From: Candidatus Omnitrophota bacterium
Lineage (GTDB): Bacteria; Omnitrophota; Gorgyraeia; Aquiviventales; Aquiviventaceae
NCBI GenBank assembly: GCA_023247255.1
Contig: JAHFGV010000022.1
Coordinates: 1-38,322, forward strand
Length of the DNA: 38,322 nt
Direction: 5' to 3'
In this document: positions 8,590 to 31,203 of the stretch, piece by piece
Layout of the letters: each line of letters opens with the position of its first letter
Numbering within the stretch: position 1 is the stretch's first letter
Notes under the pieces: generated by a model
What the model saw: the letters and a program-made list of their open reading frames with translations, nothing else
The model's database searches: none
What the model was told of the DNA's origin: nothing
Program-made: the position numbers and the translations under genes

Positions 8590-9438
8590 ATGAGCACTGT
8601 TGGGTCGATGAACAAGATCCATTCGTCAGCGATCGTTGGGAAAGACGTGAGGCTCGGGGAGGATAACGAAATCGGGCCGGGGTGCGTCATCGAAGACGGA
8701 GTCGTCTTGGGCTCGCGCAACAGGCTTTGGATGAATGTCTACGTCGGGCCGGGGACGACGATCGGTGATTCCAATCAAATCCATATGGGAGCGGTCATCG
8801 GGCATCTGCCGCAGGATGCGGCTTTTACCGGAGAGCCGACTTTTACGAAAATCGGCAGCCGCAACGTCATTCGCGAGTACGTGACGATTCATCGGGGGAC
8901 GAAACCCGACTCTGAAACGCTCATCGGGGATGAAAACTTCCTCATGGCCAACGCGCACGTGGGGCACAACTGTCAAGTCGGCAATCGAGCGACGTTGGTT
9001 AACCTGGCGACATTGGCCGGCCACTGCGTCGTTGAAGATGGGGCGGTTCTCTCTGGGATGGTGGTGGTGCATCAGTTTTGCCGGATCGGACGCTTGGCGA
9101 TCATCAGTGGGCTCTCGGCGGTGAACAAAGACGTGCCTCCTTTTATGCTCTGCGGCGGACGGCCCGCCGTTATCCAGGGGCTCAATGTTGTTGGCCTGCG
9201 ACGGGCCGGATTCTCTCCAAACTCTCGCGAGGGAATCCATGCGGCCTACAAATTATTGTACCGGTCAGACCTGAATGTTTCCCACGCCTTGGAAATGATC
9301 CAGAAACAATGTCACGGCGAAGAACTGACGCAGCTGGTGCGGTTCATCCAATCCGCTAAACGCGGGATTTGTGCCGGAATCCAGGCAGAGCCGGACACCC
9401 TTCGACCGCGCAAAGTCAGGGTACTCAGGGCTCGTTAA
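8590..9438 (+). CDS. lpxA: UDP-N-acetylglucosamine O-acyltransferase
   Basis: LpxA starts lipid A synthesis by moving a hydroxyacyl chain from acyl carrier protein to UDP-GlcNAc in the cytoplasm. The 282-residue protein shows many hexapeptide repeats of the left-handed beta-helix and the active-site motif NAHVGHNC (H123 and catalytic H126), followed by TLAGH, VVHQFCRIG and the C-terminal helical segment with GLRRAGF. The start may be 8590 or the ATG at 8608 (MNKIHSSAIVG); an AGAGG directly abuts the first. The last residues (VLRAR) and the TAA lie inside a 162-bp repeat, so the repeat insertion supplied the C-terminus. The gene is not next to fabZ, lpxB or lpxD, which is unusual; lpxD is 9 kb away. 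Confidence 0.93.
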   Translation: MSTVGSMNKIHSSAIVGKDVRLGEDNEIGPGCVIEDGVVLGSRNRLWMNVYVGPGTTIGDSNQIHMGAVIGHLPQDAAFTGEPTFTKIGSRNVIREYVTIHRGTKPDSETLIGDENFLMANAHVGHNCQVGNRATLVNLATLAGHCVVEDGAVLSGMVVVHQFCRIGRLAIISGLSAVNKDVPPFMLCGGRPAVIQGLNVVGLRRAGFSPNSREGIHAAYKLLYRSDLNVSHALEMIQKQCHGEELTQLVRFIQSAKRGICAGIQAEPDTLRPRKVRVLRAR

Positions 9439-9588
9439 GAAATAACTGCATCCATTTGACCGGGGGCTTTTGACCCATGGCTGCGTTGCTCATCGCTTAC
9501 ATCCTCATCGAGGATGCTCGCTCTTCGCGCCTTGCCCTGAGTCAAAATCCCCACGGCCAAATAGCGCAGTCATTTCTTAACGAGCCCT
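9427..9588. repeat. R1 repeat, copy 1 (162 bp, inverted ends)
   Basis: The ends are AGGGCTCGTTAAGAAATAACTGC and its near-perfect complement GCAGTCATTTCTTAACGAGCCCT. Two other copies of identical length are at 15763-15924 and 31021-31182. There is no ORF inside, only conserved internal palindromes such as ATCCTCATCGAGGAT. It looks like a non-autonomous MITE-type element. Its left end overlaps the last four lpxA codons. Confidence 0.9.
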
Positions 9589-9632: not shown

Positions 9633-9661
9633 TTGCAATTTTATTCACACGCTGCTACCCT
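9633..9661 (+). promoter_or_regulatory. Sigma-70-type promoter for the 6S-like RNA
   Basis: TTGCAA at 9633-9638 and TACCCT at 9656-9661 are separated by exactly 17 bases. The expected transcription start is near 9668, just before the first strand of the predicted RNA closing stem. Confidence 0.6.
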
Positions 9662-9667
9662 AAATTC

Positions 9668-9852
9668 AAGCCCTGCACTGTGCGTGAGGTCCCCAGTCAA
9701 CGTGAACCAACACGATGTGACCGGGAATCCGGCTTCCGTTGGGGTAGGCAGGCTCGATTTTGATCGGGTAGCCGATCCCCAGTGGAGAGGGTACCCACCT
9801 GACAAGGTTGGGTTCAGCATGACGGAGACCAACGGCAGAAGCGGGGTTTTTT
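9668..9852 (+). ncRNA. ssrS: 6S RNA candidate
   Basis: This non-coding stretch of about 185 bases folds by eye into one long interrupted hairpin. CCCTGC (9671) pairs with GCGGGG (9841), GAACCAAC with GTTGGGTTC, TCCGTTGGGG with CCCCAGTGGA as ten continuous pairs including wobbles, and GGCTCGAT with ATCGGGTAGCC at the tip. The opposed strands CACGATGTGACC and GAGGGTACCCACC leave an open middle, as in the 6S RNA central bubble that mimics an open promoter and binds sigma-70 RNA polymerase. A good promoter lies upstream and a T6 run follows the closing stem. 6S genes are known near rarA homologues in several bacteria. Another structured RNA is possible; no SRP, tmRNA or RNase P core motif is seen. 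Confidence 0.6.
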
Positions 9853-9858
9853 GTTTCC

Positions 9859-11202
9859 ATGGACCTGTTTGATTCCCCCCAACAAGATTCTTCCAGCGTC
9901 TCTGCGCCCTTAGCCGTTCGTATGCGCCCGCGGACTCTCGATGAGTACGTGGGCCAGCGACATCTGGTCGGCCCAGGCAAGCTCTTGCGCCGAACCATCG
10001 AGGCTGACCGGTTGACTTCGTTGATTCTTTATGGGCCACCAGGCAGTGGCAAGACAGCCCTCGCCCACATCATCGCAAACACCACTCAGGCTTTCTTCGA
10101 ACCGCTCAACGCCACCGCTTCGGGTGTTTCGGAATTGAGGCAGGCCTTGGCAGTCACAAAGGAGCGGTCGCGGATCAAGGATCGCCGGACCATTCTGTTT
10201 ATCGATGAGATTCATCGATTCAATAAAGCCCAGCAGGATGTCTTGATGCCTGATGTGGAACAAGGCAATCCCATTCTGATCGGTGCAACGACGTTCAATC
10301 CCTTTTTCGCCATTGTTCCCGCCCTCGTCTCCCGATCCCTGGTGTGTGAGCTCAAGCCGCTCGCAGCGACGGATATCCTGGCTTTGTTGAATCGAGCCCT
10401 TGCGGATCAAGAACGCGGGCTGGGAAGGTTTACGGTAGACATCGATTCGGAGGCCCTCAAGCATCTGGCGGATGTTTGTGACGGGGATGCCCGGCGTGCG
10501 CTCAACGCCCTGGAAGTAGCGGTGCTAACCACAAGCCCTGGCGCTGACGAGAAGATCCACATCCCTCTTTCTGTCGTTGAGGAATCGATCCAGAAACGCG
10601 CGGTTGTTTACGACCAGGCCGGGGATGCGCACTACGATACAATCTCCGCGTTCATCAAGTCCATGCGCGGCTGTGATCCTCAAGCCACCCTCTATTGGTT
10701 GGCGAAGATGCTCTACGCGGGAGAAGATCCCCGGTTCATCACCAGGCGCATCGTCATCTGCGCTGCGGAGGATGTGGGAAATGCCGATCCCCAGGCGTTG
10801 GTCCTGGCAATAGCGGCGATGCAGGCAGTGGAATTCATCGGCCTTGCGGAGTGTCGCATTCCTTTGGCGCAGGCCGCCGTGTACGTGGCCTGTGCGCCCA
10901 AGTCGAACGCGGCCTATTTAGGCATCGAGCGGGCCATGAAAGATGTGGAATCCGGACGAACGCTCGAGGTTCCGGATTCCCTCAAGGATGCTCACTATCG
11001 AGGAGCCAAGAAGTTAGGGCGAGGGGTCGGTTACAAATATGCCCATGACTATCCGGATCATCATGTAGAGCAGGACTATCTGCCTTCAGAATCGAAAACT
11101 GGCACAGGCAAGAACCCCCAGAGGGTTTATTATGAACCTACCGATCAGGGCTTTGAAAAAATCATCAAAGAACGCCAGGAGAAACGCTCAAAGGGGCCTT
11201 AA
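9859..11202 (+). CDS. rarA: Replication-associated recombination protein A (RarA/MgsA)
   Basis: RarA is an AAA+ ATPase that acts at stalled replication forks together with RecA and single-strand binding protein. The 447-residue length fits the family. Visible parts are LAVRMRPRTLDEYVGQ (18-33), Walker A GPPGSGKT (59-66), Walker B ILFIDEIHRF (112-121), sensor IGATT (141-145), the arginine-bearing SRSLVCELKPL, and the C-terminal tetramerisation part with RRIVICAAEDVGNADP and YKYAHDYPDH. The usual ENP after GATT reads FNP. The ATG begins six bases after the T run that ends the 6S-like RNA, so the leader of rarA is either the 6S transcript read through or absent. AGCGGGG 11-17 bases ahead could serve as a poor ribosome site. 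Confidence 0.95.
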   Translation: MDLFDSPQQDSSSVSAPLAVRMRPRTLDEYVGQRHLVGPGKLLRRTIEADRLTSLILYGPPGSGKTALAHIIANTTQAFFEPLNATASGVSELRQALAVTKERSRIKDRRTILFIDEIHRFNKAQQDVLMPDVEQGNPILIGATTFNPFFAIVPALVSRSLVCELKPLAATDILALLNRALADQERGLGRFTVDIDSEALKHLADVCDGDARRALNALEVAVLTTSPGADEKIHIPLSVVEESIQKRAVVYDQAGDAHYDTISAFIKSMRGCDPQATLYWLAKMLYAGEDPRFITRRIVICAAEDVGNADPQALVLAIAAMQAVEFIGLAECRIPLAQAAVYVACAPKSNAAYLGIERAMKDVESGRTLEVPDSLKDAHYRGAKKLGRGVGYKYAHDYPDHHVEQDYLPSESKTGTGKNPQRVYYEPTDQGFEKIIKERQEKRSKGP

Positions 11203-15762: not shown

Positions 15763-15924
15763 AGGGCTCGTTAAGAAATAACTGCATCCATTTGACCGGT
15801 GGCTTTTGACCCATGGCTGCGTTGCTCATCGCTTACATTCTCATCGAGGATGCTCGCTCTTCGCGCCTTGCCCTGAGTCAAAATCCCCACGGCCAAATAG
15901 CGCAGTCATTTCTTAACGAACCCT
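15763..15924. repeat. R1 repeat, copy 2 (162 bp)
   Basis: Same structure and exact length as copy 1, with ends AGGGCTCGTTAAGAAATAACTGC and GCAGTCATTTCTTAACGAACCCT. It is flanked by TA on both sides, a possible target duplication. It separates the carrier gene from moeB, whose ATG begins 13 bases later, so any moeB promoter or leader must come from the repeat or from read-through. Confidence 0.9.
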
Positions 15925-15936
15925 TAGCGACGGGAC

Positions 15937-31020: not shown

Positions 31021-31182
31021 AGGATTCGTTAAGAAATAACTGCATCCATTTGACCGGGGGCTTTTGACTCATGGCTGCGTTGCTCATCGCTTACATCCTC
31101 GTCGCGGATGCTCGCTCTTCGCGCCTTGCCCTGAGTCAAAATCCCCACGGCCAAATAGCGCAGTCATTTCTTAACGAACCCT
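31021..31182. repeat. R1 repeat, copy 3 (162 bp)
   Basis: Ends are AGGATTCGTTAAGAAATAACTGC and GCAGTCATTTCTTAACGAACCCT; length is identical to the other copies. It occupies nearly the whole gap between mdh and gltA and ends 21 bases before the gltA ATG. It may carry or block transcription into gltA. Confidence 0.9.
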
Positions 31183-31203
31183 AACTGAGGCGTGCCGAGA
31201 TAG

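Follow-up and report, generated by a model that had tools for sequence, protein, structure and literature searches.

In Escherichia coli, 6S RNA and ygfA are transcribed together, according to two reports (PMC2848244; PMC7641849). In Lactobacillales, rarA is a conserved neighbour of the 6S gene and lies upstream of it, and in Bacillus subtilis it lies near 6S-1 in the opposite direction; the source for both statements proposes a common stress response network for 6S RNA and rarA, and takes 6S RNA to be monocistronic (PMC8414754). The proximity of 6S and rarA in lactic acid bacteria and B. subtilis has thus been published before. Our literature search found no paper joining 6S RNA with Omnitrophota or with COG2256, and the search on 6S RNA together with rarA or its other names returned, besides PMC8414754, a paper that has 6S RNA with mgsA (PMC3439734) and a Porphyromonas fitness study that has both in unrelated roles. 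The order with 6S upstream of rarA may have been noticed earlier in other phyla. Here we analyse a stretch of 38,322 nucleotides from an uncultured Candidatus Omnitrophota bacterium (hereafter the window), in which a 6S RNA gene adjoins the start of the co-directional DNA-repair gene rarA. The features of the locus, in window coordinates, are as follows.

8590–9438, plus strand: lpxA, the upstream neighbour, outside the unit (NCBIfam NF003657, 317 bits, above the cut-off of 226).
9427–9588, no strand assigned: palindromic MITE-like repeat between lpxA and the 6S promoter (inverted arms; fold z = −7.63).
9633–9638, plus strand: −35 element TTGCAA (direct reading and script check; TTG at equal spacing in many relatives).
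9653–9661, plus strand: extended −10 element TGC-TACCCT, of the form TGnTAnnnT (direct reading and script; a GTGCTA...T pattern is common among relatives).
9667–9851, plus strand: 6S RNA gene, Rfam RF00013, model positions 1–187 of 187 (82.6 bits, cut-off 46.4).
9668–9676, plus strand: 5′ arm of the closing stem (pairs with 9841–9849 in the minimum-energy fold).
9691–9711, plus strand: predicted template of the product RNA (pRNA), in the 5′ strand of the central bubble; the pRNA made from it would read GUUGGUUCACGUUGACUGGGG.
9841–9852, plus strand: 3′ arm of the closing stem (GCGGGG) and T6 run, a probable intrinsic terminator (9841–9847 paired with probability 0.99–1.0).
9859–11202, plus strand: rarA, encoding an MgsA family AAA+ ATPase of 447 amino acids that starts with MDLF (open reading frame list and NCBIfam).

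The gene at 9667–9851 encodes a genuine, ordinary 6S RNA, a type of RNA that restrains RNA polymerase in many bacteria. A preliminary description of this DNA had called it 6S-like and had named a covariance search with the 6S model as a check that could overturn the call; the search returned a clear, full-length match (E = 5.4 × 10−15, cmscan of the window), and the identification can be strengthened to 6S RNA. This is the sole Rfam match in the whole window at gathering thresholds and the only 6S match in the 2.18-Mb assembly, which is 90.7% complete. The RNA is expected to start at about 9667 and to be about 185 nt long, and its folding energy of −85.5 kcal/mol (z = −4.35) was equalled by 0 of 200 shuffles. 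In an alignment of 55 6S genes (the window, L002–L030 and L111–L135, all above the Rfam cut-off and therefore biased towards good matches), the consensus fold has 21 pairs, 13 of which show changes in both partners, a number reached in 1 of 500 shuffles. Across these pairs, 94.2% of cells are paired compared with 84.7% after shuffling, and 119 cells are changed on both sides compared with 46.3 (0 of 500 shuffles reach either value); because the alignment also supplied the structure, the test is partly circular and leans towards pairing, whereas the Rfam score is independent. Sliding the partners by 1–3 columns lowers pairing to 42–58%, and the closing-stem helix is paired in 97.4% of cells. 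In the central region, the CCAACA and CCCACnT motifs vary little or not at all, and the central bubble is largely unpaired in the consensus fold and partly closed in the single-sequence minimum-energy fold. With the RF00013 family the RNA shares the full-length covariance match, the closing stem, the central bubble with both motifs and the terminal stem; we found no structural difference from that family, in a phylum that has received little study in this respect. In a set of 40 genomes that includes our own, 31 have 6S RNA, all 31 above the cut-off, as do 17 of the 18 genomes in that set with at least 90% completeness and at most 5% contamination.

The pRNA was placed by matching the cmscan alignment to the start of the E. 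coli pRNA, at the position that we take that start to have. By this analogy with E. coli, the product RNA would begin GUUGGUUCACG... The GG at positions 4/5 of the predicted pRNA agrees with a feature of other 6S pRNAs given in PMC8414754.

The putative 6S promoter has the layout TTGCAA-17-TACCCT, with the −10 hexamer at 9656–9661 and a 17-nt spacer that carries the TG of an extended −10 element (9653–9654). A consensus promoter scan of the window did not list it on the plus strand, because its −10 element agrees with TATAAT at just three of six positions, and its own score has p = 0.145 in a shuffle test. Among the collected 6S genes, 72 in all (L001–L030, L111–L135 and 17 named loci), the best −35/−10 pair upstream has a mean score of 7.66 compared with 5.09 for mononucleotide shuffles; 70 of the 72 could be scored, L005 and L076 having too little upstream DNA, and 33 of the 70 reach p ≤ 0.05 individually, whereas 7 have no qualifying site. 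L031 had been left out of the collection because it duplicates the DNA of L015; further duplicates may exist among the 72 between genomes with and without names. Our call of this candidate promoter rests on conservation across relatives. In five loci (L039, L123, L125, L128 and L130), the best promoter ends about 26–30 nt before the start of the 6S model, compared with about 5 nt in the window, so that the 6S RNA of these loci may be about 20 nt longer at the 5′ end or may undergo processing. Four of the five (L123, L125, L128 and L130) belong to one family, and L039 groups with three of them in the RarA tree.

Direct reading and a script located the promoter, the closing stem and the T6 run where the preliminary description had placed them. 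At the junction, the T6 run (9847–9852) is followed by GTTTCC and the rarA ATG at 9859; the stated six-base distance between the T run and the start codon is accurate, and the abutment of the 6S terminator to the start of rarA is real in the sequence. The further claim that rarA has no independent leader also holds in sequence terms, as the ATG at 9859 encodes the conserved N terminus MDLF, and GCGGGG is the only Shine–Dalgarno-like G tract just before the rarA gene of the window. A consensus terminator scan of the window gave no terminator-like site because the scan allows loops of 3–8 nt only. A T tract (at least 5 T in the 9 nt after GGG[GA]) is present in 63 of the 66 Omnitrophota 6S genes, the six non-Omnitrophota members of the 72 being left out of this count.

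We call the protein encoded at 9859–11202 RarA even though its NCBIfam scores fall below the curated cut-offs. Its best match is the RarA-type AAA ATPase model (595.9 bits over residues 1–442; cut-off 651), and the shortfall probably reflects the greater length of the model, of which 433 of 736 positions are matched; against the RarA model NF011289 it scores 209 bits (cut-off 570). In an alignment with 13 full-length relatives, the protein is 53–75% identical to them. The nine best-ranked named RarA relatives are from Candidatus Omnitrophota metagenome-assembled genomes. In all 14 aligned RarA proteins, L3 and F4 of the MDLF-like N-terminal motif are kept; we take this N terminus to resemble a sliding-clamp-binding motif. 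Upstream, lpxA was considered as part of the unit and rejected, as it was found only in the locus of the window and in L006 among 30 loci (flanks of up to 1.5 kb). The MITE-like repeat of about 162 bp has 28 copies in the genome, some of them partial, at 94–100% identity, with further copies in the window at 15763–15930 and 31026–31184. The copy at 9427 contains the lpxA stop codon, and about 45 bp separate its end from the −35 element of 6S.

To place the junction in context, we surveyed 78 Omnitrophota genomes, our own included, each at least 90% complete. A 6S match was found in 49 (45 of them over the cut-off) and, under the stricter filters of this survey, none in the other 29, and rarA was found in 73; rarA therefore does not need 6S RNA. 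Both genes were found in 47 genomes, and in 40 of these 6S precedes a co-directional rarA by 4–357 nt (by at most 15 nt in 11 of the 40), which is the arrangement of a bicistronic unit of 6S and a protein gene, with 6S upstream, co-directional and kept in relatives. The remaining seven comprise one divergent pair (G058) and six genomes with the genes on different contigs; one of the six (G061) is so counted although a partial rarA lies 327 nt behind its 6S gene (L119). Where both genes are found in Omnitrophota, this order is the usual one. Two of the 49 genomes with 6S (G083 and G030) gave no rarA match; G083 has two 6S matches over the cut-off (L111 and a second at G083:C78:28939-29129) and no rarA match at E = 10−60. 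In one Omnitrophota family (f33), only 1 of 16 genomes has a 6S match, which is below the cut-off (39.8 bits), and all 16 have rarA matches; either 6S RNA was lost there or it has diverged beyond the reach of the model and filters. In a nearer set of 29 relative loci, rarA lies downstream on the same strand in 25 and is divergent in one (L011), and no rarA was found within the fetched flank in three (L002, L008 and L027). In 13 loci, the two genes are co-directional with a gap of just 1–9 nt.

Relatives keep the order and the strand of the two genes but not the precise distance between them. On a RarA tree, the abutting state (a rarA start no more than 16 nt beyond the 6S match; 17 loci) changes 13 times; shuffling gives 14.4 changes on average, and 125 of 500 shuffles give 13 or fewer. 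The tree is a quick and rough one, holding 51 of the 72 rows and leaving 22 of 48 inner branches open. We had considered abutment as a conserved constraint and dropped the idea on this comparison. The lability of the spacing between relatives argues against a conserved, dedicated switch, and makes one that depends on spacing unlikely as a general feature.

Outside Omnitrophota, the link between the two genes is far from general. Among 80 named RarA loci, 18 hold 6S, in every case upstream of rarA and on the same strand: 12 of 15 Omnitrophota loci, 2 of 5 verrucomicrobial loci, both Alicyclobacillaceae loci and 2 from records titled only ‘bacterium’. No 6S was found in any of the Lachnospiraceae and planctomycete records among the 80. 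Of 20 6S loci from 25 of the genomes behind these 80 loci, just 5 show rarA at a distance of up to about 1.5 kb: four whose adjacency was already established and one from Omnitrophota. By phylum, rarA lies beside 6S in 9 of 23 Verrucomicrobiota loci and 8 of 30 Bacillota loci, with 6S upstream and co-directional in all 17, and in none of the 13 Planctomycetota loci; these counts are lower bounds, given flanks of at most 1.5 kb, and the Bacillota loci are the 30 top-ranked among 60 genomes with a match. One genome, L182, prompted the Verrucomicrobiota search, and without it the count is 8 of 22. In Verrucomicrobiota, 11 of the 23 6S matches score below the Rfam cut-off, as do 4 of 13 in Planctomycetota. 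The linkage is thus usual in Omnitrophota, whereas two other phyla show it in some loci only and in a fourth it was not seen.

How, then, is rarA expressed? The reading that we prefer, with a probability of roughly 0.7, is that 6S RNA is made from its own promoter, that most transcripts stop at the T6 run and that a minority read through to give a 6S–rarA mRNA and low levels of RarA. A housekeeping-sigma promoter at 9633–9661 would drive the RNA of about 185 nt, which would fold into a 6S rod with a central bubble; going by its family membership, this RNA would bind the housekeeping RNA polymerase holoenzyme and let it go by templating a short product RNA. Most transcripts would end at the closing stem and T6 run, and those that continued into rarA, with its start codon six bases on, would be bicistronic. 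In the 90 nt before the rarA start of the 17 abutting loci, the best promoter-like score has a mean of 6.24 compared with 6.00 for dinucleotide shuffles, whereas the 6S promoters of the same loci score 6–11; because the score measures agreement with the E. coli consensus, a genuine rarA promoter of Omnitrophota might escape it. The lack of a promoter-like site above shuffles before rarA makes read-through of the 6S terminator the most likely way in which the gene would be transcribed. An lpxA transcript reading through from upstream could be an alternative source. It is plausible that read-through would link polymerase control to fork repair, as the preliminary description had proposed.

Less probable, although still a serious contender, is that 6S and rarA have been inherited together with no regulatory link at all, their order reflecting slow rearrangement only. 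The labile gap would fit this, as would the many 6S loci with no rarA in a flank of up to 1.5 kb (14 of 23 in Verrucomicrobiota, 22 of 30 in Bacillota and 13 of 13 in Planctomycetota). Against it, order and strand beside 6S are constant across varied gaps and three phyla, with L011 and G058 as the exceptions, and drift alone does not readily keep such an order and strand.

We consider it unlikely that rarA has a promoter of its own, overlapping 6S or recognised by a sigma factor unlike sigma-70, with a leaderless or very short-leadered mRNA that the 6S terminator only insulates. In abutting loci the T tract fills the place of a Shine–Dalgarno sequence, which would suit leaderless initiation, and the length of the gap differs among relatives; the promoter-like scores before rarA in the 17 abutting loci speak against this reading. 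A rarA promoter inside the 6S gene was dropped on the same scores. In L005, which has a longer gap, a TATACT was seen shortly before the rarA start, by eye only.

Control of rarA in cis through the 6S fold is more doubtful again. In this reading, the closing stem would hide GCGGGG in the read-through mRNA, and translation of rarA would need refolding of the 6S RNA, such as by pRNA synthesis during outgrowth. The G tract is indeed paired with a probability near 1.0 in the 6S–rarA fold, and positions −18 to −5 (14 nt) pair with the anti-Shine–Dalgarno sequence at −4 kcal/mol or below in 14 of 17 abutting loci compared with 8 of 24 non-abutting loci, mostly through GGGG. This analysis is noisy and used the 41 of 72 6S genes with a placeable rarA start (two of them non-Omnitrophota); seven starts were assigned manually, and L004 and L007 have less certain starts that are not of the MDLF type. 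However, GGGG is fixed by the closing stem, and its position follows automatically from abutment; in the window it lies 12 nt from the ATG, which is far for a Shine–Dalgarno sequence. Random 14-mers from the window reach −4 kcal/mol in 29.6% of 500 draws, and greedily chosen open reading frames of the window do so in 11 of 24 cases, even with the best start in 40 codons. The scatter of abutment on the RarA tree also counts against such control. We give similarly little credence to the wider proposal that the 6S RNA of abutting Omnitrophota doubles as the 5′ leader of rarA, its closing stem and U tract ending 6S, setting read-through and hiding the only Shine–Dalgarno-like sequence of the mRNA; were it true, RarA output would follow 6S conformation, for example through pRNA-driven refolding during outgrowth. 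A riboswitch or attenuator that merely resembles 6S, suggested by a structure that reaches the start codon and closes with a stem and T run like those of a terminator, is very improbable and was dropped as a novel cis-regulatory leader, given the full-length 6S match well above the cut-off, the divergent genes in L011 and G058, the three loci with no rarA in the fetched flank and gaps of up to 357 nt.

These results give good support to a 6S RNA in a phylum whose members are known largely through metagenomes and extend the 6S–rarA neighbourhood to Omnitrophota and to some of the sampled Verrucomicrobiota and Bacillota loci, with 6S upstream and co-directional. This differs from Lactobacillales and B. 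subtilis, in which rarA is described as lying upstream of or opposite to 6S. If the preferred reading of read-through from 6S into rarA is true, a link between the shutting down of polymerase and the restarting of replication becomes testable, and rarA would be another protein gene, beside ygfA, that rides on a 6S transcript. The locus resembles E. coli ssrS–ygfA in having 6S first and a protein gene downstream on the same strand. The downstream gene differs: ygfA (FAU1) encodes 5-formyltetrahydrofolate cyclo-ligase, and the gene here is rarA, so that we liken the locus to ssrS–ygfA and do not class it there. Chae reportedly described, in 2011, Rho-dependent termination for E. coli 6S RNA. Compared with ssrS–ygfA, the Omnitrophota locus has a T tract directly before the start codon of the downstream gene.
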